From assembly GCA_016213405.1 (NCBI GenBank), contig JACRAM010000108.1:1-40978 (forward strand): a stretch of DNA of 40,978 bases, given 5' to 3'. The notes beneath the pieces were generated by a model that saw only the letters and a list, made by a program, of their open reading frames with translations, ran no database searches and was not told the origin of the DNA. Origin of the DNA: Bacteroidota bacterium. GTDB lineage: Bacteria > Bacteroidota > Bacteroidia > Palsa-948. Shown piece by piece: positions 7,641-33,345 of this stretch; position 1 is the first letter of the stretch; each line of letters starts with the position of its first letter. Made by a program: the position numbers and the translations under genes.

Positions 7641-7675
7641 ACCACCCCTACCCCTCTCCTTCAAAAGGAGGGGAG
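7641..7675 (+). repeat. C-rich hairpin repeat, copy 6
   Basis: The arm ACCACCCCTA precedes an imperfect stem CCCCTCTCCTT (7651-7661) / AAGGAGGGG (7665-7673). It sits immediately upstream of the first composite palindrome cluster, as copy 13 does for the second. Confidence 0.75.
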
Positions 7676-7695
7676 ATTTTGATTTGCATTCTTTA

Positions 7696-7824
7696 CCCCG
7701 ACATAAATGTCGGGGCTATTAATATTTCACTCCTACGGAGTGAAGAAAAATCAAAAACAAAATATTAATGGCTGTGTTTCCCCGTAGGGGAAAAATATTA
7801 ATAGCCCCGCGCTTTAGCGCGGGG
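7696..7824 (+). repeat. Palindrome cluster, composite element copy A
   Basis: Four hairpins follow one another. They are CCCCGACAT / ATGTCGGGG (7696-7715), TTCACTCC / GGAGTGAA (7726-7744), TTTCCCC / GGGGAAA (7777-7793) and CCCCGCGC / GCGCGGGG (7805-7824). They are linked by GGCTATTAATATT (7714-7726) and AATATTAATAGCC (7794-7806), which are exact reverse complements and could close a long-range stem. Copy B (33069-33186) has the same order. In it the last stem is CCCTCCGA / TCGGAGGG, with compensatory changes. The gene-free interval 7615-8004 is filled by this element, copies 6 and 7 of the C-rich repeat, and the adjoining ncRNA-like part. Confidence 0.8.
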
Positions 7825-7850
7825 AAAACGAAATGCCTCACCACACAGGG

Positions 7851-7946
7851 CTGTTTGCGCGAACGATTGAAGTGGAAATCCTCTGACGCTTCGGTCAGAG
7901 ATTGTAGCGGATAGCCCGACCTGAGTCTTCGAGGGGCGCGCCCAAG
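7851..7946 (+). ncRNA. Candidate structured RNA, copy A (GATTGAAGTGGAAATCC element)
   Basis: The core GATTGAAGTGGAAATCC is followed by a stem CTCTGAC (7881-7887) / GTCAGAG (7894-7900), then GATTGTAGCGGATAGCC and a variable terminal part ending in GCGCGCCCAAG. The two 17-base halves resemble each other. Copy B (33213-33345) keeps the core but has a different stem there (CTTTGC / GCAAAG), so the pairing is conserved while the bases are not. From memory this resembles the Flavo-1 RNA or a related repeated RNA of Bacteroidota, which I could not verify. No protein-coding potential is seen. Confidence 0.5.
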
Positions 7947-9126: not shown

Positions 9127-9333
9127 GGTACAGATAACGAATGCATGCGAATTTACAGAATTACAATAGTACAAATAACGAATGAACACTAATTTGCGAA
9201 ATTACGAATAGATACAAATTTGAAATCATATGTAGTTTCGTAAATCTGTAACGATTAGTTATTCGCACCATTATCAGACATTCGTAATGATTTGTAGTTT
9301 CGTAAATCCGTAACGATTAGTTATCCGCACCAT
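9127..9333. repeat. Intergenic repeat block between holA and the HsdR-N gene
   Basis: A 41-base segment starting TGTAGTTTCGTAAATC and ending CGCACCAT occurs at 9231-9271 and again at 9293-9333 with two differences, a period of 62. The left part (9127-9190) holds GGTACAGATAACGAATG and ACAAATAACGAATG copies in the opposite sense, so the block is a large imperfect inverted repeat. The ATG of the HsdR-N gene lies in the end of the second copy. The possible N-terminal extension of holA is encoded in the left part. Confidence 0.75.
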
Positions 9334-9802
9334 GGTTAAATTAAATCTCCCCGAATATTCTTTCCGCATTCAGAAAACGGAAAAGGGTTTGCGGATTTTT
9401 GATTCACTGAGAAAGAAGTTCGTTGTCCTCACTCCTGAAGAATGGGTGAGGCAGAATTTTATTCGGTATCTGATTGAAGAAAAGAAATATCCTGCTTCGC
9501 TGATTGCTGTTGAAATGGGATTGAAGTATAACAAACTTAAAAAGCGCAGCGATATCACCATCCACGACCGGAAAGGAAATGTGTGGATGATCATCGAATG
9601 CAAAAAACCGGATGTAAAAATTTCGCAGGATACGTTTGACCAGGTAGCTACTTATAACATGTCACAGAAAACTAAAACGAGATTTTTGGCAGTAACAAAT
9701 GGGTTGAAGCATTATTGCTGTGAATTACTTGCCCTATCCCTAAAGGGAGATTTTGAATCTGCTGGTTACCGATTTCTGAAAGATTTTCCTGAGTTTAAAT
9801 GA
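9332..9802 (+). CDS. HsdR N-terminal-domain protein (stand-alone PD-(D/E)XK nuclease fold)
   Basis: The 156-aa protein matches the N-terminal domain of type I restriction endonuclease subunits (HSDR_N). Residues about 30-50 read LTPEEWVRQNFIRYLIEEKK. A probable active site follows: Asp in KRSDITIHD near residue 74, then IIECKKP near residue 88. These fit the PD-(D/E)XK pattern. No helicase part, methyltransferase or specificity subunit is nearby, so this is not a restriction system. Stand-alone proteins of this type are common in Bacteroidota, and I recall them beside holA. The function is unknown. The start codon lies within the end of an intergenic repeat. Confidence 0.85.
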   Translation: MVKLNLPEYSFRIQKTEKGLRIFDSLRKKFVVLTPEEWVRQNFIRYLIEEKKYPASLIAVEMGLKYNKLKKRSDITIHDRKGNVWMIIECKKPDVKISQDTFDQVATYNMSQKTKTRFLAVTNGLKHYCCELLALSLKGDFESAGYRFLKDFPEFK

Positions 9803-9856: not shown

Positions 9857-9882
9857 AGGTGCAAAAAAAAGTTTCGTTAAAA

Positions 9883-9914
9883 TTTGTTTTTGATATTGAG
9901 ATTTCTACCTTTAC
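9883..9914 (+). promoter_or_regulatory. Putative promoter of the first subtilase
   Basis: TTTG at 9883-9886 is followed after 19 bases by TACCTTTAC at 9906-9914, one mismatch from TAnnTTTG. The leader to the ATG at 9949 would be about 32 bases. Confidence 0.4.
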
Positions 9915-9948
9915 ATTCCATTTAATAACTTTACTAAAAAACACCTGT

Positions 9949-12900
9949 ATGAAAAAATTTACATCGTTGTTTTGTGTTTCAATTTTTTCTTTCAGCACTG
10001 TGCTGACTTTTGCCGGAAATAAATGTGAAGTTATTATTCCCGGGCAAGACCCATCCAAGAAACAATTTGTTATGGCAAAAGGTTTAGTGGACGGTGAAGA
10101 TTATCTTTCCAAAACCATCATCTTCCGTGTTAAACCGAATTACCGCCAGAACTGCAAAGTAAATTCTGTGGACAACATTCTGCCTCTTCAGGATTTTCTA
10201 AACTCTATCGAAGCGCAGAATCTTGCCAAGATTTATCCGCGCCATGAAAAGCCAGAGCAAGAAAGAAATGCTCTTGGTCAAAAATTAGTTGACCTTTCTC
10301 TCATCTATTCTTTCAAGTACACTGCTGATATGAAATTGGAAAAAGTAATCAATCAGATGAAATCACTCGGATATTTTGAATATGTGGAGCCATGGTATGT
10401 TCCGAAACTTCATGCAGTGTGTATTCCTAATGACCTGGGCACATCTGCACAATATCATTTACAGGGAAATGTGGCCGGAAGTATTAATGTACGCAACACC
10501 GCTTTTTGCACACAAAACGGAAGCACGAGTGTTGTAATCGGAATTACAGATACTGGTACTGAACTCAACCATCCTGATTTGGCAGCAAACATTGCACATA
10601 ATAATGCTGATGGACCAACCGTAAATGGAGTTGATGATGACGGTGATGGTTACATTGATAATTACCAGGGATGGGATGTTGGGATGAATGACAGAGACCC
10701 CACATGGCAAGGCGATGCTCACGGAGTTGCCACTTCAGGTGACGCATGTGCAGTTACTAATAATGGAACAGGTGTTGCCAGTCCGGGATTCAACTGCAAA
10801 TTTCTGCCAGTAAAAATTGCCGATGCAAGCGGTGCGCTTGTTGCCGCATATACCGGCATCACTTACGCTGCCGACCATGGTGTAAAAATTATCAGCAACT
10901 CATGGGGAGGAACAGGTGGTGGTTCTTATGGACAAAATATTATTGATTACGCAGCCATTAATAAAAACTGTCTTGTTCTCGCATCTGCAGGTAATGGCGG
11001 TGTGGAAGAATCCCTCTATCCTTCTTCCTATAATAATGTATATCGTGTAGCTTCAACAACCAGCTCTGATGCCAAGTCCGGTTTTTCATCCTATGGTTTG
11101 GATGTGGATTTTGGCGCTCCCGGAAGCAGCATTTATTCTACTTACAGCGGAGGCAGTTATTCCACTCTTAGCGGAACCTCCATGGCTTGCCCTGTTTCAG
11201 CAGGCGCTGCGGGTCTTGTTCAATCTCAATTCAATTATACTAACGCATTCCAGATTGGGGAAAAGTTAAAACAAACCTGCGATCCGTATGTTGGCGCATC
11301 TACCTTGGCGCTCTACAATGCAGGTAAACTTGGAAAGGGCAGGATTGATGTTAACAGCGCTCTTACAGTGACAGCAAAATCACTTGCGATGAATCCTATC
11401 ACCATCACCGATGGTAACGATGATGTTCTTTTGCCGGGCGAAAATCTTTCCATCAGAGGAAGATTTACTAATTACTTAGACCCTTCAAGCAGTTCTGCAA
11501 CAGCCACTCTTACTGTTGTTTCTGGACCAGGAACTATTACAAGCGGCAATCCCTTTATCATCGGCGTTTTGCCTACGCTTGATACGACAAATAACAACAG
11601 CAGTCCGTTCATAGTTAATATTAGCGGTTCAGCTGCTGTTAATTCAGTAATACAATTCAAAGTAACAATTACAGATGGCACTTTTACCGGCATCCAGTAT
11701 TTCAGTGTAACGGTGAATGTGGATTACATCAATATCACTATTAATGATGTTCATACCACCATCACCAGCAAAGGCAGACTTGGCTATAATCTTGACGGGC
11801 AGGCGCAAGGGCTTGGCTTCGAATACCAGATTCCCTCTCCCAATAGCTTACTATATGAAATGAGTTTAATGGTTGGAACTTCATCTACAAAAGTAGATGA
11901 CATGTTCCGCGAAACTACCAGCGGGAATACTGATTTTGCTTCTACCAACCGTGTTTACCAGGTTACTCCAGCCACTGTTTCTGATTTTGATGTGGATGGC
12001 AAGTTCAACGATGCTCCTTCTGCATCAGGCCCCCTGCCCGTTACTGTGCATCACAGCGCTTATGCCTGGTCTACCTCACCTTACAGGAAATTTGTTATTG
12101 TAAAATATGTAATTAAAAATACCGGAGGAAGCACATTAAACAATTTGTATGCAGGAATTGTGGCTGACTGGGATATCACCAATGCAGGCCAGAACAAGAG
12201 CGCGTATGATGCAACAAATAAAATGGGATATTGTTATGATGTTTCTTCTGCCAACGGTTTGTATTCAGGAATTAAATGTCTTACAAATCTTGCCAGCGTT
12301 AAGAACTACTGCATAGATAATATTGCAGGTGGTAATGGAGGTATTGATCCGGCAACCGATTTTCTTGTAGGAGAAAAATATACCGCACTTTCCACTACGC
12401 GAAATGCTGACGGGTTTTCTGCAACGGGCGGAGATGTGATGGACTGTGTGAGCAACGGACCCTTCAGCGTTAATGCAGGCGACAGCATTACCGTTGCGTT
12501 TGCTTTGATAGGCGGAGACAATCTTGCCGACATTCAGAACAGCGCTTGTTATGCACAACAAAAGTGGAACAATACCGGTCCCTGTTCCTTACCATTATCT
12601 GCAACAACCAGCTACGGAAATGTTTCTTGTTATGGACAATGTAATGGAACAGGAACTGCGAATGTTTCAGGAGGAGCTTTGCCTTATACCTATCTTTGGA
12701 ATAATGCACAAACAAATCAAACTGCAACCGGATTATGTGCGGGAACTTATACTATTACTGTAACCGATGCTGTAAGCGCAACTACGACCGCAGCAGTTAC
12801 AATATCTCAGCCTTCAGTATTGAATGTAACTGCAAACTCTCCATCACCTATTTGTTCAGGCAACTGTACAACACTAACGGCAAATGCTACAGGTGGCAAT

Positions 12901-14004
12901 GGAGGAAATAATTATGTTTGGCAGCCGGGAAATATGACGACAACAAGCGTGAGTGTTTGCCCCACTGCACTTACTAATTATACAGCTACAGTTACGGATG
13001 CTAATGGATGTACGGCAACCACTACAACAACTGTAAGTATGAATCCTCCGCAAGCAACGCCAGTAATTACTGCAAACGGTTCAACAACAATTTGTCAGGG
13101 CAACAATGTTACATTATCATCAAGTGCAGGAAATAGTTATGTATGGTCAACAGGTGCTACTACTCAGGATATTACAGTTTCAGTAGCTGGAAATTATTCT
13201 GTCACCGTAACAAACGCTGGCGGTTGTTCGGCAACTTCAACTGTAACAAATATTACAGTTCTTTCAACTACAGCCTCGATAACTCCAAGCGGTTTAACCA
13301 CATTTTGCATGGGTAATGACGTAACGCTCACAGCAAATTCAGGAAGCAGTTATTTATGGTCAAACAATGCAACCACGCAAAGCATTGTTGTAAATCAATC
13401 AGGAAGTTTTACCGTTGCTGTTACTAATCAGTGCGGAGCGGATACTTCTACACTTGTTTCTGTTACAGTAAATTCATTACCAGCAGTTTCTGTTTCTTTA
13501 AATCCTGACTCCCTTTGCATTAATGCAAGCGCTTACGCTCTCACTGGTGGAACTCCTGGCGGAGGAACTTATTCAGGAAATGGAGTGAGTGCAGGAAATT
13601 TCGATCCAAATATTGCTGGAGGCGGTTTACATAATATTATTTACACTTACACAGATGGAAACAACTGCTCCAATAGTGATACAGCACAGATTTATGTGGA
13701 TTTGTGTACGGGCATACAATCTATTTCAGAAAATCAATCAATAATTATTTTTCCCAATCCTACAACTGGCGAGTTTACGGTTTATGGTTTACAGTTTATG
13801 GTTGAAAGCAAATTACAAATTACAAATGCACTAGGAGAAAAGATGTATTCTGAAAAAATTCTTAATCCTAAACCTGTGGTGAGCGGAGCCGAACCATCCT
13901 TAATCCTTAATCTTGATTTACCAAACGGAATATATTTCATTCATCTTGTTTCGGAGAAAACAGGAGAAGCAGTGATGACTAAGAAGTTTGCAGTTGTAAA
14001 ATAA
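9949..14004 (+). CDS. Secreted S8 family serine peptidase with SprB/PKD-like repeats and T9SS type A sorting domain
   Basis: The protein has 1351 aa. Residues 1-21 form a signal peptide (MKKFTSLFCVSIFSFSTVLTF). The pro-region follows to about residue 160. The subtilase domain has Asp201 (TDTGTELNHPD), His258 (DAHGVATSGD) and Ser411 (SGTSMACPVSAG), a complete triad. The region about 480-880 is a conserved beta-rich part shared with the next gene. From about residue 885 come SprB-like and Ig/PKD-like repeats rich in Cys, Thr and Ser (YTYLWNNAQTNQTATGLCAG, then several YVWSTGATT-type units). The C-terminal part has IIIFPNPTTGEFTVYGLQ and ends in KKFAVVK, a T9SS type A domain. Residues about 1309-1316 are encoded by a small repeat. 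The start at 9949 fits the signal peptide; an upstream start at 9859 would add 30 residues without one. Confidence 0.93.
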   Translation: MKKFTSLFCVSIFSFSTVLTFAGNKCEVIIPGQDPSKKQFVMAKGLVDGEDYLSKTIIFRVKPNYRQNCKVNSVDNILPLQDFLNSIEAQNLAKIYPRHEKPEQERNALGQKLVDLSLIYSFKYTADMKLEKVINQMKSLGYFEYVEPWYVPKLHAVCIPNDLGTSAQYHLQGNVAGSINVRNTAFCTQNGSTSVVIGITDTGTELNHPDLAANIAHNNADGPTVNGVDDDGDGYIDNYQGWDVGMNDRDPTWQGDAHGVATSGDACAVTNNGTGVASPGFNCKFLPVKIADASGALVAAYTGITYAADHGVKIISNSWGGTGGGSYGQNIIDYAAINKNCLVLASAGNGGVEESLYPSSYNNVYRVASTTSSDAKSGFSSYGLDVDFGAPGSSIYSTYSGGSYSTLSGTSMACPVSAGAAGLVQSQFNYTNAFQIGEKLKQTCDPYVGASTLALYNAGKLGKGRIDVNSALTVTAKSLAMNPITITDGNDDVLLPGENLSIRGRFTNYLDPSSSSATATLTVVSGPGTITSGNPFIIGVLPTLDTTNNNSSPFIVNISGSAAVNSVIQFKVTITDGTFTGIQYFSVTVNVDYINITINDVHTTITSKGRLGYNLDGQAQGLGFEYQIPSPNSLLYEMSLMVGTSSTKVDDMFRETTSGNTDFASTNRVYQVTPATVSDFDVDGKFNDAPSASGPLPVTVHHSAYAWSTSPYRKFVIVKYVIKNTGGSTLNNLYAGIVADWDITNAGQNKSAYDATNKMGYCYDVSSANGLYSGIKCLTNLASVKNYCIDNIAGGNGGIDPATDFLVGEKYTALSTTRNADGFSATGGDVMDCVSNGPFSVNAGDSITVAFALIGGDNLADIQNSACYAQQKWNNTGPCSLPLSATTSYGNVSCYGQCNGTGTANVSGGALPYTYLWNNAQTNQTATGLCAGTYTITVTDAVSATTTAAVTISQPSVLNVTANSPSPICSGNCTTLTANATGGNGGNNYVWQPGNMTTTSVSVCPTALTNYTATVTDANGCTATTTTTVSMNPPQATPVITANGSTTICQGNNVTLSSSAGNSYVWSTGATTQDITVSVAGNYSVTVTNAGGCSATSTVTNITVLSTTASITPSGLTTFCMGNDVTLTANSGSSYLWSNNATTQSIVVNQSGSFTVAVTNQCGADTSTLVSVTVNSLPAVSVSLNPDSLCINASAYALTGGTPGGGTYSGNGVSAGNFDPNIAGGGLHNIIYTYTDGNNCSNSDTAQIYVDLCTGIQSISENQSIIIFPNPTTGEFTVYGLQFMVESKLQITNALGEKMYSEKILNPKPVVSGAEPSLILNLDLPNGIYFIHLVSEKTGEAVMTKKFAVVK
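13873..13896. repeat. Short palindromic repeat inside the T9SS sorting domain
   Basis: CCTGTGGTGAGCGGAG followed by CCGAACCA is translated in frame as PVVSGAEP within the sorting domain. The core GAGCGGAG-CCGAA also occurs, with T for C, on the minus strand at about 33304-33317. Confidence 0.5.
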
Positions 14005-14077
14005 TTTCAGAAACACTAATAAAAAATCCTAATTTAGTTCCTTCTCTTAATAAACCCCACCACTAAAAACAACCATT

Positions 14078-16987
14078 ATGAAAAAATTTACATCGCTGTT
14101 TTGTGCTTCCATTATTTCTTTCAGCACAGTGCTGACTTTTGCCGGAAATAAATGCGAAGTAATTATTCCCGGAAGAGATTTATCCAAAATTCCTTTTGTA
14201 ATGACAAAGGGTTTAGTGGACGGAGAGGATTATCTTTCCAAAACCATTATCTTCAGAGTAAAACCCAACTACCGTCAGAACTGCAAAGTAAATTCTGTGG
14301 ATAACATCCTTCCCGTTCAGGATTTCCTGAACGCTATCGGAGCGCAGAACCTTGCCAAGATTTATCCGCACCATGAAATGCCAGCGCAGGAAAGAAATGC
14401 TCTTGGTCAAAAATTAGTTGACCTTTCGCTCATCTATTCTTTCAAATACACTGCCGATATACAACTTGTGAAAGCAATCAACCAGATGAAATCGCTCGGA
14501 TACTTTGAATACGTGGAGCCATGGTATGTTCCGAAAATTCATCTCAATCCAAATGACCCTCAATGGAGTTCGCAATACCATCTTGTAGGCACTGGTGTAG
14601 TGGGAACAGGAAGTATAAATTGTCCAAACGCCTGGAACATTACAACAGGAAGCACAAGTGTGATAATAGGAATAACAGACACCGGAACAGAATTAAATCA
14701 TCCTGATTTAGCTGCAAATCTTTATCACAATACTGGCGATGGTCCGGCAGTAAATGGAGTGGATGATGATGGTGACACATACATTGACAATTACGATGGA
14801 TGGGATGTGGGGATGAATGATAGGGACGTAACATGGCAGGGAGATTCTCATGGCGTTTATACTTCTGGCGATGCCTGTGCAGTCACAAATAATAGTGTGG
14901 GAGTAGCGAGCCCTGGTTTCAATTGCAAATTTTTTATGACAAAGATTGCTGATGCAGGTGGTATTCTGATTGCCGCATATAATGGCATCACTTATGCAGC
15001 CGATCATGGTGCAAAAATCATCAGCAACTCTTGGGGCGGGGGCGGTGGAGGTTCTTATGGTCAAAACATTATTGACTATGCAGTTATCAATAAGAACTGT
15101 GTGGTATTTGCTTCTGCCGGAAACGGTGGCGCTGACCAATTGGTGTATCCTTCTTCCTATAATAATGTATATCGTGTATCATGGACAACCAGTGGCGATG
15201 CAAAATCAGGTTCTTCTGATTACGGAAATGATGTGGATTGGGCGGCTCCAGGAAGTAACATCTTGTCCACAAGTAGTGGAGGAGGTTATGGACCCGTAAG
15301 TGGAACTTCTATGTCTTGTCCTGTTTCAGCTGGTGCTGCAGGTCTCGTTCAATCTCAATTCAATTATACAAATGCTTTTCAGATTGGTGAAAAACTTAAA
15401 CAAACCTGCGATCCGCTGCCGGCTTCTTCTCAATATGTTGCAGGCAAACTCGGCAAAGGGCGCATTGATGTTTACAGCGCACTTACCGTTGCCGCAAAAT
15501 CTCTTATGGCAAACCCTATCACTATTACTGATGGTAATGATGATGTGTTCATGCCCAATGAAAATCTTTCTATCAGTGCGCTGTACACTAATTATCTTGA
15601 CCCTTCAAGCAGTTCTGCTTCCGCAGCGCTTACGGTTGTTTCTGGTCCCGGAACAGTTACTGTCGGCAGTCCCTATTCCATCGGATCATTGGCAACACTT
15701 GGAACCAACTCCCAGTCTGCTCCCTTTACTGTTAACATCCAGTCGGGCGCATTGCCTAACGCGGTTATCCAATTCAAGCTAACAATTACTGACGGCACTT
15801 TTACCGGCAGTCAGTATTTTAGTGTAACAGTAAATGAGGACTATATCAATATTACCATAAATGATGTGTTCACGAGCATTACAAGCAAAGGCAGAATCGG
15901 ATATAATAATGACGGGCAGGCGAATGGTCTCGGATTTGAATATCAATTGCCTTCTCCTGAGAATCTTCTTTACGAAATGAGTTTGATGATTGGAACATCT
16001 TCTACAAAAGTTTCTGATATGTTCCGAGGTGGAGCTACTGGAGATACAGATTTTGGTTCTTTAGCCCGTGTATATCAAGTTACTCCCGCAACAGTTTCAG
16101 ATTTTGATGCAGACGGAAAATTCAATGATGCTCCTGCACCGTCTGCCATTCCCGTTGAAGTGCATCACAGCGCATATGCATGGGTTGCCTCTCCTTACCG
16201 GAAGTTTATTATTGTAAAATATGTTATTAAGAATACGAGCGCAAGTACATTGAATAATATGTATGCGGGTCTGCTTGCCGACTGGGATATTCCCAATGCT
16301 ACTCCGCAAGACAAAGCCGCTTATGATGCCGTTAATAAAATAGGGTATGTGTGGAATCCGAATATTACTGGCCCTTATGCTGCCTTTAAATTACTGACAA
16401 GCGCTGGTGCCACCCATTATGTTGTTGACAACATTGCCGGTGGCGGTGGAGGAATTGACCCTACTGCGGGAACTCCCGCATTCGATACGCAGGAAAAATA
16501 CACAGTACTTTCTACCAATCGTGCTGCCGATGGATTTACTGCCACTGGCGGTGATGTGATGGATTGCATGAGCACTGGTCCGCTTTCAGTGAATGCAGGT
16601 GACAGCGTTATAGTTGCTTTTGCAATCATTGCCGGAGATAATCTAGCAGATATTCAAAATACCGCATGCTATGCACAGCAAAAATGGGATAATACCGGTC
16701 CTTGTGCCACAGGAGTTTCTGAAGTTACAGCAGATAATTTCTGGATGGAGGCATACCCAAACCCTGCCTCCAGCACAGTAAATATCAATTACAATATTGT
16801 TGGCAGTGGCAACGCTTCTCTTAAGCTTGTGAATTCTCTCGGAGAAGTTGTCATGGCATTTGATAACCTCCCGATGGGAAGAAACATGCTCCCTGTAGAT
16901 GTTTCAAAACTCAGTGCAGGAAATTACTTCTGCCAGTTCAAAACAGGCGAGGCGGTTCTGACAAAACAATTTTCAGTTGTGAAATAA
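14078..16987 (+). CDS. Secreted S8 family serine peptidase with T9SS sorting domain (tandem paralog)
   Basis: This 969-aa protein is a close paralog of the preceding one. Signal peptide, pro-region, catalytic domain and the following beta-rich region align almost residue for residue, with Asp201, His258 and Ser411 at identical positions. It lacks the long SprB/PKD-like repeat block. After the shared QNTACYAQQKWDNTGPCATG segment it goes directly to a T9SS domain (MEAYPNPASSTVNINYNIVG, ending KQFSVVK). The gap between the two genes is 73 bp, with no visible terminator, so co-transcription is likely. A clear terminator follows this gene. Export through the outer membrane by T9SS is inferred from the C-terminal domain. 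Confidence 0.93.
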   Translation: MKKFTSLFCASIISFSTVLTFAGNKCEVIIPGRDLSKIPFVMTKGLVDGEDYLSKTIIFRVKPNYRQNCKVNSVDNILPVQDFLNAIGAQNLAKIYPHHEMPAQERNALGQKLVDLSLIYSFKYTADIQLVKAINQMKSLGYFEYVEPWYVPKIHLNPNDPQWSSQYHLVGTGVVGTGSINCPNAWNITTGSTSVIIGITDTGTELNHPDLAANLYHNTGDGPAVNGVDDDGDTYIDNYDGWDVGMNDRDVTWQGDSHGVYTSGDACAVTNNSVGVASPGFNCKFFMTKIADAGGILIAAYNGITYAADHGAKIISNSWGGGGGGSYGQNIIDYAVINKNCVVFASAGNGGADQLVYPSSYNNVYRVSWTTSGDAKSGSSDYGNDVDWAAPGSNILSTSSGGGYGPVSGTSMSCPVSAGAAGLVQSQFNYTNAFQIGEKLKQTCDPLPASSQYVAGKLGKGRIDVYSALTVAAKSLMANPITITDGNDDVFMPNENLSISALYTNYLDPSSSSASAALTVVSGPGTVTVGSPYSIGSLATLGTNSQSAPFTVNIQSGALPNAVIQFKLTITDGTFTGSQYFSVTVNEDYINITINDVFTSITSKGRIGYNNDGQANGLGFEYQLPSPENLLYEMSLMIGTSSTKVSDMFRGGATGDTDFGSLARVYQVTPATVSDFDADGKFNDAPAPSAIPVEVHHSAYAWVASPYRKFIIVKYVIKNTSASTLNNMYAGLLADWDIPNATPQDKAAYDAVNKIGYVWNPNITGPYAAFKLLTSAGATHYVVDNIAGGGGGIDPTAGTPAFDTQEKYTVLSTNRAADGFTATGGDVMDCMSTGPLSVNAGDSVIVAFAIIAGDNLADIQNTACYAQQKWDNTGPCATGVSEVTADNFWMEAYPNPASSTVNINYNIVGSGNASLKLVNSLGEVVMAFDNLPMGRNMLPVDVSKLSAGNYFCQFKTGEAVLTKQFSVVK

Positions 16988-31751: not shown

Positions 31752-32470
31752 TAGTAGACATTTTCATCCCCTGTTTCATTGACCAGCTTCATCCGAATGT
31801 CGGGCTGAACATGGTGAAGGTTTTGGAAAAACTCGGTTGCGGCATCAATTATAACCCCGAACAAACCTGTTGCGGGCAACCTGCTTTCAATTCCGGTTAC
31901 TGGGACGAAGCACGCGAAGTGGGTGAAAAGTTTATAAAGGAATTTCAGAACGACAGATATATTGTTTCTCCTTCGGCTTCGTGTGTTGGATATGTGAAAA
32001 ATTATTATCCCGAAATGTTCCACAATTCTGTTTTGCATAATGAGTTCAAGCAAGTAAAAAGAAATATTTTTGAGTTCTCAGATTTTCTGGTGAATGTGTT
32101 GAAGATTACAAATCTTGGAGCTTCATTAAAAGGAGTTGCAACGTATCACGATTCCTGCGCTGCGCTGCGCGAGTACGGAATCAAGCGCGAGCCGAGAACG
32201 CTGTTGGAAAAAGTGCGCGGACTTGAACTTCGCGAAATGAAAGACACAGAAGTATGCTGCGGCTTTGGCGGAACGTTCTCCGCAAAGTTTGAACCCATTG
32301 CGGTTGGCATGGTAGAACAGAAAGTAAAAAATGCACTTGACGTAAAAGCAGATTATATTATTTCCACGGATATGTCCTGCTTGCTTCACATGGACAGTTA
32401 CATCAAAAAGCAAAAGCTTGACATGAAAGTGATGCATATTGCGGATGTACTTGTCTCTGGCTGGGAATGA
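31748..32470 (+). CDS. LutA/YkgE-type (Fe-S)-binding protein
   Basis: The 240-aa protein has two CCG-type cysteine-rich motifs: CCGQPAFNSGYW near residue 38 and CCGFGGTFSAKF near residue 173. These are characteristic of the heterodisulfide-reductase-like domain in LutA, YkgE and GlpC. Such proteins work in L-lactate or glycolate oxidation, usually with LutB and LutC. Neither partner gene is in the window, so lactate use is uncertain. It is four bases overlapped with the MFS gene upstream, and a DinB-like gene follows. An electron-transfer role in the cytoplasm is the safest inference. Confidence 0.88.
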   Translation: MIVDIFIPCFIDQLHPNVGLNMVKVLEKLGCGINYNPEQTCCGQPAFNSGYWDEAREVGEKFIKEFQNDRYIVSPSASCVGYVKNYYPEMFHNSVLHNEFKQVKRNIFEFSDFLVNVLKITNLGASLKGVATYHDSCAALREYGIKREPRTLLEKVRGLELREMKDTEVCCGFGGTFSAKFEPIAVGMVEQKVKNALDVKADYIISTDMSCLLHMDSYIKKQKLDMKVMHIADVLVSGWE

Positions 32471-32471
32471 C

Positions 32472-32499
32472 CGTCATTGCGAGCGGAGCGAAGCAATCT
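32472..32499. repeat. TCATTGCGAGCGGAGCGAAG palindromic repeat at the DinB-like gene start
   Basis: ATTGC (32476-32480) pairs with GCAAT (32493-32497) around GAGCGGAGCGAA. From memory this short repeat type is common in bacterial genomes. Here it would encode VIASGAKQS if translation began at 32467. Confidence 0.6.
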
Positions 32500-32508
32500 C
32501 ACAGAAAA

Positions 32509-33006
32509 ATGAAACATATTCTCGAAACATACACTTCCTACAATTTCTGGGCGAACGCAAAACTCACGGATGTTCTCAAAAGCATTGATCCCTCGCTCAT
32601 TGACAAAGAAGTTGCAAGCAGTTTTAATTCCATAAGAAAGACAACGTATCACACCTGGGGTGCGGAGGAATTATGGTGGAAACGGCTGCATGGGGAATCG
32701 CTAAGTAAAGTTCCTGCCATGGACTTTAGCGGAAGTTATGAAAAAGCCGTGAAACATTTTCTTTCTGTTTCAAAAAAAATTACGGAGTTGGTGAAAGAGA
32801 AAGATGAAAACTATTTGCAAACTCCCAACACCTACAAAGACACGCGCGGAAATTCCTGGACGAACACGCACTGGCAGATGATCATGCACTGCATGAACCA
32901 CAGCACTTTTCACAGAGGGCAGTTGATTACGATGATGAGGGCGGTGGGTGTTACAATAATACCCGCTACGGATATGATTGTTTATTTCAGGGAGCAAAAG
33001 AAATAA
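32509..33006 (+). CDS. DinB-like metal-binding four-helix protein
   Basis: The product (165 aa from the ATG at 32509) matches the DinB/YfiT fold: LETYTSYNFWANAKL at the N-terminus, TTYHTWGAEELWWKRL with a metal-ligand His, and MHCMNHSTFHRGQL with two more. The three His residues would bind a metal ion. Family members include thiol-dependent transferases, but the reaction here is unknown. An ATG at 32467, overlapping the LutA-like stop as ATGA, would add 14 residues. Those residues are encoded almost entirely by a palindromic repeat, so I prefer 32509 while not excluding the longer form. Confidence 0.85.
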   Translation: MKHILETYTSYNFWANAKLTDVLKSIDPSLIDKEVASSFNSIRKTTYHTWGAEELWWKRLHGESLSKVPAMDFSGSYEKAVKHFLSVSKKITELVKEKDENYLQTPNTYKDTRGNSWTNTHWQMIMHCMNHSTFHRGQLITMMRAVGVTIIPATDMIVYFREQKK

Positions 33007-33010
33007 TTTT

Positions 33011-33047
33011 GCCTCACCCCCAACCCCTCTCCTCAAGGAGAGGGGAG
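33011..33047 (+). repeat. C-rich hairpin repeat, copy 13
   Basis: The arm GCCTCACCCCCAA precedes a perfect stem CCCCTCTCC (33024-33032) / GGAGAGGGG (33037-33045). It begins 5 bases after the DinB-like stop and leads into composite element copy B. Confidence 0.85.
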
Positions 33048-33068
33048 GTTTTGGTTGGGACTTTTATT

Positions 33069-33186
33069 CCCCGACATAAATGTCGGGGCTATTAATATAT
33101 CACTCCTACGGAGTGAAGAAAAAATTTTAATGGCTGTGTTTCCCCGCAGGGGAAAAATATTAATAGCCCTCCGATTCATCGGAGGG
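33069..33186 (+). repeat. Palindrome cluster, composite element copy B
   Basis: The hairpin order is the same as in copy A (7696-7824): CCCCGACAT / ATGTCGGGG, CACTCC / GGAGTG, TTTCCCC / GGGGAAA and a final CCCTCCGA / TCGGAGGG (33167-33174 / 33179-33186). The spacer inside the third hairpin is shorter than in copy A. The final stem differs from copy A at three of eight pairs, each still Watson-Crick. The interval 33007-33376 has no gene and is filled by this element, copy 13 and the adjoining RNA-like part. Confidence 0.8.
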
Positions 33187-33212
33187 AAAATGAAATGCCA
33201 CAACCAACACGG

Positions 33213-33345
33213 CTGTTTGCGTTAGCGATTGAAGTGGAAATCCTTTGCGCCTTGCAAAGATTGAAACGGAAAGCGCGTCCCCGCACATTGAACAGCAGAT
33301 TCTTCGACTCCGCTCAGAATGACAATGTGCGGGGAAACGCCCAAG
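33213..33345 (+). ncRNA. Candidate structured RNA, copy B (GATTGAAGTGGAAATCC element)
   Basis: The core GATTGAAGTGGAAATCC is identical to copy A. The next stem is CTTTGC (33243-33248) / GCAAAG (33254-33259), then GATTGAAACGGAAAGC. A 12-pair stem CCCCGCACATTG (33279-33290) / CAATGTGCGGGG (33323-33334) follows, enclosing a loop that itself contains a short repeat. The end AAACGCCCAAG matches the GCGCCCAAG end of copy A. The two copies have different stems at the same positions. I recall Flavo-1-like RNAs with this core but cannot confirm it. Confidence 0.5.
33301..33324. repeat. TTCGACTCCGCTCAGAATGA-type short repeat in the RNA loop
   Basis: This short repeat sits inside the terminal loop of candidate RNA copy B. 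Its reverse complement carries TGAGCGGAGTCGAA, close to the GAGCGGAGCCGAA core in the subtilase sorting domain. Copy A lacks it, so it looks like an insertion of one repeat into another. Confidence 0.55.

Follow-up and report, generated by a model that had tools for sequence, protein, structure and literature searches.

The question raised by this locus is whether a dispersed repeat whose hairpins change in a paired manner should be read as a structured RNA or as a DNA element recognised by its fold. Two copies lie in the window, the whole stretch of 40,978 nucleotides analysed here (contig JACRAM010000108.1 of a Bacteroidota bacterium): copy A at 7651-7945 and copy B at 33011-33345. The preliminary description had reported compensatory differences between them and took these as the signature of either class of element. 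Compensatory changes by themselves do not identify an RNA, and the repeat is probably best read as mobile DNA of REP/MITE type, composite in build and constrained by its structure.

The differences between the copies are as described. Hairpin 4 reads CCCCGCGCTTTAGCGCGGGG in copy A (7805-7824) and CCCTCCGATTCATCGGAGGG in copy B (33167-33186), with three pairs changed and all of them Watson-Crick, and the downstream stem is CTCTGAC/GTCAGAG in copy A and CTTTGC/GCAAAG in copy B, preceded in both by the same core, GATTGAAGTGGAAATCC. Because the lengths of the downstream stem differ between the copies, this change is a stem replacement and not point covariation. Within the window, the two copies align over 106 and 132 nt at 81-84% identity. 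The fold of copy B as single-stranded DNA had z = -7.7, no shuffled sequence folding equally well, and that of its complement had z = -7.8. Two copies alone are insufficient to establish covariation, which is established by 107 copies gathered from many genomes.

Rather than a single RNA, the composite comprises two or more modules: a transposase-type hairpin array is followed by a three-way-junction element that contains the Rfam motif Flavo-1. The two modules of copy A, and the 3' module of copy B, are laid out as follows.

7651-7824, + strand: copy A, hairpin 0 and the H1-H4 array (alignment with copy B, sequence).
7854-7945, + strand: copy A, three-way-junction element (Flavo-1 scores 39.8 bits against a cut-off of 42, and two of the three pairs at the base of P2 are mismatched).
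33214-33284, + strand: copy B, Rfam Flavo-1 match (RF01705; 53 bits, E 7.9e-09, cut-off 42).
33216-33344, + strand: copy B, whole three-way-junction element, TTTGCG...CGCCCAA (ends defined from 18 copies).
33219-33223, + strand: outer stem P1, 5' strand GCGTT (covaries with 33336-33340 across copies).
33225-33276, + strand: arm P2, which corresponds to the Rfam Flavo-1 model (its base and core pairs covary).
33279-33334, + strand: arm P3, with small hairpin CCCCGCACATTG/CAATGTGCGGGG (sequence, comparison of copies).
33296-33323, - strand: foreign palindrome GTCATTCTGAGCGGAGTCGAAGAATCTG in the P3 loop (similar sequence in the P2 loops of L006, L008, L012 and L104).
33336-33340, + strand: outer stem P1, 3' strand AACGC (partner of 33219-33223 by covariation).

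Flavo-1 (RF01705) was described by Weinberg et al. (2010), who judged it to be probably RNA (PMC2864571), and Rfam files it under the type 'Gene; sRNA'; since 2010 it has been listed as an abundant candidate RNA awaiting a function. The gathering score of 42 bits is reached by copy B and missed by copy A. Searches of the genome from which the window derives (a draft of 3.65 Mb from an uncultured bacterium) yielded 18 matches, and the curated score is exceeded by copy B and 13 further copies in that genome. Of 80 genomes searched, 31 contained Flavo-1, and one relative had at least 51 matches. Two subtypes were distinguished, a classic form, TAGCCCCGAT...AGCGGGAAATAGC, and a form bounded by TTTGCG...CGCCCAA, to which both window copies belong.

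In the latter subtype, GCGNN 5' of the arm pairs with N'N'CGC 3' of it. When copies were collected with simple anchors that fixed GCG and CGCCC and left both tested positions free, both positions of the variable dinucleotides were paired in 53 of 55 copies (one with a G-T pair), the types including TT/AA, TG/CA, CG/CG, CC/GG and CA/TG. Three of these (CG/CG, TT/AA and TG/CA) coexist in the window's own genome, so that the agreement in P1 is not a single inherited state. The preliminary description had proposed a covariation test over all copies, and an R-scape-like version was run on 53 P1-type copies (linker A) as an APC-corrected G-test of 38 columns and 703 column pairs. The stems passed: the six variable predicted base pairs occupied ranks 1-6 among the 703, with G of 76.0, 54.5, 47.9, 44.2, 39.3 and 38.6, the seventh pair scoring 23.5. 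Against a null for which 60 alignments were simulated along a tree and the substitutions of each column were redistributed, the six pairs gave E = 0, 0, 0, 0.07, 0.30 and 0.32 on a tree that is rough, the sequences being short; the P2 pairs core.2-5, core.7-0 and P2base.1 lay above all scores in the simulated alignments. One P2 core pair varies among T-A, A-T and G-C. Two of the six pairs sit in P1, which is absent from the Rfam model; each alone is suggestive, and the two combined with their ranking are convincing.

P1 is thus an outer stem new to Flavo-1, and with it the element, which forms the 3' part of copy B (33216-33344) and is conserved by paired changes, becomes a three-way junction with interchangeable arms. 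A second arm type, GATTGAGCCAWTTGTTTGAGC...GAGTGGCGAAAGC, occupies the same P1/P3 frame, with nine pattern matches in the window's own genome and few elsewhere; arms of the GATTGAGCCAWTTGTTTGAGC type were seen in L249, L250 and L252-L255 and are nearly confined to that genome. The apical loops of P2 or P3 hold other palindromes (GTCATTCTGAG... and TCTCGATACGC..., in L003, L006-L009, L012 and L104), and a GTCATTCTGAG-type palindrome is nested inside P3. The P1-subtype junction provides a corrected model of Flavo-1 that can be searched and tested.

Unpaired stems had been named in advance as what would count against a conserved structure, and copy A, through its mismatched P2 base, is a partial counter-example. 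Of the original either-or interpretation, the structure has held, while covariation leaves RNA and DNA unseparated. Nor does covariation require selection on a fold: arm-to-arm template-switch repair of palindromes during DNA replication creates paired changes, and both makes and maintains hairpins (PMC8794818), and the pairing could be its by-product. The apical stems and H1-H4, which are near-perfect palindromes swapped wholesale between copies, speak for such repair. As an account of the pairing it is improbable: the covarying pairs of P1, of the P2 base and of the core, which are retained across many genera, lie next to further hairpins and to large internal loops rich in purines, an arrangement unlike a simple palindrome.

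Imperfect stem positions bear on the choice between RNA and DNA. Among about 1,300 stem positions counted, 26 were G-T and 10 A-C. This excess leans slightly towards RNA; it is mild and not decisive, because G-T, which makes up only about 1-2% of stem positions, is a comparatively stable mismatch in DNA too. It joins the strong covariation on one strand, the Rfam type and the assessment of Weinberg et al. (PMC2864571) in pointing to a transcribed structured RNA formed by Flavo-1 with P1 and P3, a small RNA or cis element that would have spread through its own mobility or through its use beside many genes. The genomic settings make this account unlikely. In F. psychrophilum some matches coincide with 5' transcribed regions, but sense and antisense matches occur alike and many fall outside transcribed regions (PMC9723704). 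Copies in the window's own genome lie in 10 tandem, 5 convergent and 2 divergent contexts by automatic ORF calls, and no neighbour gene recurs, no Pfam family being found more than three times among the 89 nearest neighbour proteins.

The reading as a mobile DNA repeat is favoured by dispersal, by absence from syntenic positions and by transposase genes flanked by the same hairpins. Copy B sits in the spacer between a DinB gene and a peptidase gene, the named relatives of the latter being from metagenome-assembled 'Bacteroidetes bacterium' genomes; the syntenic spacer in G004 is without the element, and the peptidase gene of G001 and the DinB gene of G006 each run directly into another gene, again without it. 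Copy A lies in the murB-holA region, whose counterparts in G003 and G006 are also element-free. As the congeners are separate species, these absences could be explained by loss or local rearrangement, and the element-free spacers differ in other respects as well, so that they document dispersal and not a precise event; neither a duplicated target nor a precisely matching empty site was seen, nor any event of transposition.

The link to transposases comes from the 5' module, for which the features in copy B are as follows.

33024-33045, unstranded: hairpin 0, CCCCTCTCC-TCAA-GGAGAGGGG, after CCTCACCCC; a separate, highly dispersed palindrome (sequence).
33051-33057, + strand: upstream flank strand TTGGTTG, pairing with CAACCAA at 33201-33207 (whole-element fold; U-D pairing p = 0.17 over all copies).
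33069-33088, unstranded: hairpin 1 (H1), CCCCGACATAAATGTCGGGG (identical to one beside a Y1 transposase gene of the sister genome G006).
33089-33098, + strand: spacer strand S1, CTATTAATAT, pairing with S2 (predicted stem around H2 and H3).
33100-33116, unstranded: hairpin 2 (H2), TCACTCCTACGGAGTGA (sequence, fold).
33139-33155, unstranded: hairpin 3 (H3), TTTCCCCGCAGGGGAAA (sequence, fold).
33157-33166, + strand: spacer strand S2, ATATTAATAG, pairing with S1 (fold).
33167-33186, unstranded: hairpin 4 (H4), CCCTCCGATTCATCGGAGGG, the compensatory case (sequence; variants in other arrays).

The layout is symmetric, H1-CTATTAATAT-H2...H3-ATATTAATAG-H4 (33069-33186), and in the predicted fold of copy B, H2 and H3 lie inside the S1/S2 stem and H1-H4 inside the flank stem. 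Long-range pairing between the array flanks is partly supported: with segments U, M and D delimited by eye, U-M pairing (around H1-H2) was better in the copies' own combinations than in permuted ones (p = 0.0002, n = 12), while M-D and U-D pairing were not significant (p = 0.37 and 0.17). Each of 11 arrays read in G000 and G006, one of them without a clear H4, precedes a P1-type element, which may be of type I, of type II or reduced, in some cases with an intervening hairpin. The converse fails, as several Flavo-1 copies have no array. The stretch 33011-33047, containing hairpin 0, recurs by itself many times across the genus; hairpin 0 was rejected as a candidate whalefall-1 RNA, scoring 19.7 bits against the Rfam model, far under the cut-off of 37.

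In G006 (at G006:C19), a gene with a Y1_Tnp domain sits between CCCCGACATTTATGTCGGGG and CCCCGACATAAATGTCGGGG, the latter being H1. Its 153-aa product (Y1_Tnp E 5e-28) carries the motif YISNQEAHH, which fits Y---Q--HH, the signature of TnpA-Y1 subclass 1.2 (Quentin et al., 2018; PMC6006769). H1 thus occurs both beside a Y1 transposase gene and elsewhere without one, as expected of a REP/BIME-like hairpin. At L202:1455-2076, L052 and L224, genes for subclass 1.2-like Y1 transposases lie between matching hairpins, those on either side in L052 and L224 being CCACGACCT..AGGTCGTGG; L223 and L210 are likewise enclosed by a similar hairpin on each side, and the remaining genes have hairpins on one side or not at all. 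Because H1 also brackets the G006 gene, the array could derive from a Y1-transposase unit without retaining its gene. H2 and H3 differ in type from those by the G006 transposase, and for this reason the array may, alternatively, combine two units as a mosaic.

The transposase link is supported for the hairpin array only. For the Flavo-1 part, the corresponding pairing with a Y1 gene was found neither at the loci of RAYT relatives nor at 28 Y1 loci. A RAYT-like gene at L001:939-1579 has a stop codon that abuts the start of a Flavo-1 element, the sole case seen. On the strength of that adjacency, Flavo-1 might be taken as the cognate REP of this larger RAYT directly upstream; several of the enzyme's relatives bear GTAG-type palindromes and none bears Flavo-1 (L059-L084 have their own palindromes or none), and the arrangement was not repeated at the 28 further Y1 loci, which makes such a relationship very improbable indeed. 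Nor was Flavo-1 supported as the repeat of any Y1 transposase in Flavo-1-rich genomes, a single weak match having been found by those 28 loci, drawn from ten such genomes; G015, with 27 Flavo-1 copies, had no Y1_Tnp match.

If the repeat is mobile DNA, the array would be a MITE-like, gene-less derivative of a Y1-transposase unit, with hairpins that a Y1-type enzyme would recognise in their folded single-stranded form and copy in trans. The Flavo-1-type module would either travel with the array or be mobile in its own right, as a repeat of similar style served by a putative enzyme. Stems would stay paired through the propagation of folding copies only, with template-switch correction of palindromes perhaps helping. 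With Flavo-1 as one arm of a covarying junction in this subtype, its leading reading moves from small RNA to mobile DNA. A more specific proposal, and a doubtful one, is that Flavo-1 represents one piece of a larger three-way-junction element that is recognised by its structure, has swappable arms, spreads in Bacteroidota via a not-yet-known enzyme and is co-assembled with subclass 1.2 Y1 hairpin arrays; if true, such co-assembly would give orphan subclass 1.2 transposases their missing substrates.

Other repeats were seen in the window. The sequence GACCGTCATTGCGAGCGGAGCGAAGCAATCTCACAG (32470-32510), at the beginning of the DinB-like gene, is a palindrome of CGTC type whose copy number in the genus is very high. 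A tandem gene duplication spans 9859-16987, where two large ORFs (1381 and 969 aa) contain long direct repeats of 74-85% identity at a spacing of about 4.1 kb, and a 54-nt direct tandem repeat (9218-9333; two copies, 89%) lies upstream of a gene for an HSDR_N-domain protein (9332-9802).

Among known systems, integron attC-like sites were considered and dropped, as the order of the ends does not seem to fit. Arm P2, with internal loops rich in purines, is common to Flavo-1 and the copies described here, whereas the Rfam model leaves P1 and P3 unpaired or outside, and P2 can be replaced by the GATTGAGCCAWTTGTTTGAGC...GAGTGGCGAAAGC arm. Like MITEs, the repeats are short, gene-less and multi-copy with an inverted-repeat layout; unlike them, they have imperfect ends (TTTGCG/CGCCCAA) and no target-site duplication in the flanks inspected. 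With REP/BIME sequences and their RAYT or TnpA-REP enzymes (PMC2817692, PMC3733652) they have in common dispersed intergenic palindromes in alternating orientation that also occur at a Y1 HUH unit, but the GTAG or CGTC foot tag, sought by inspection, is absent from H1-H4 and the P1 element, and the hairpins form part of a composite that is multi-branched and over 300 nt long. Finally, the genes flanked by H1-type hairpins bear the Y---Q--HH signature of TnpA-Y1 subclass 1.2, a group reported to lack, in general, typical terminal secondary structures (PMC6006769); in contrast to that description, several members here are bracketed by matching hairpins, and the H1 hairpins suggest substrates for these transposases.
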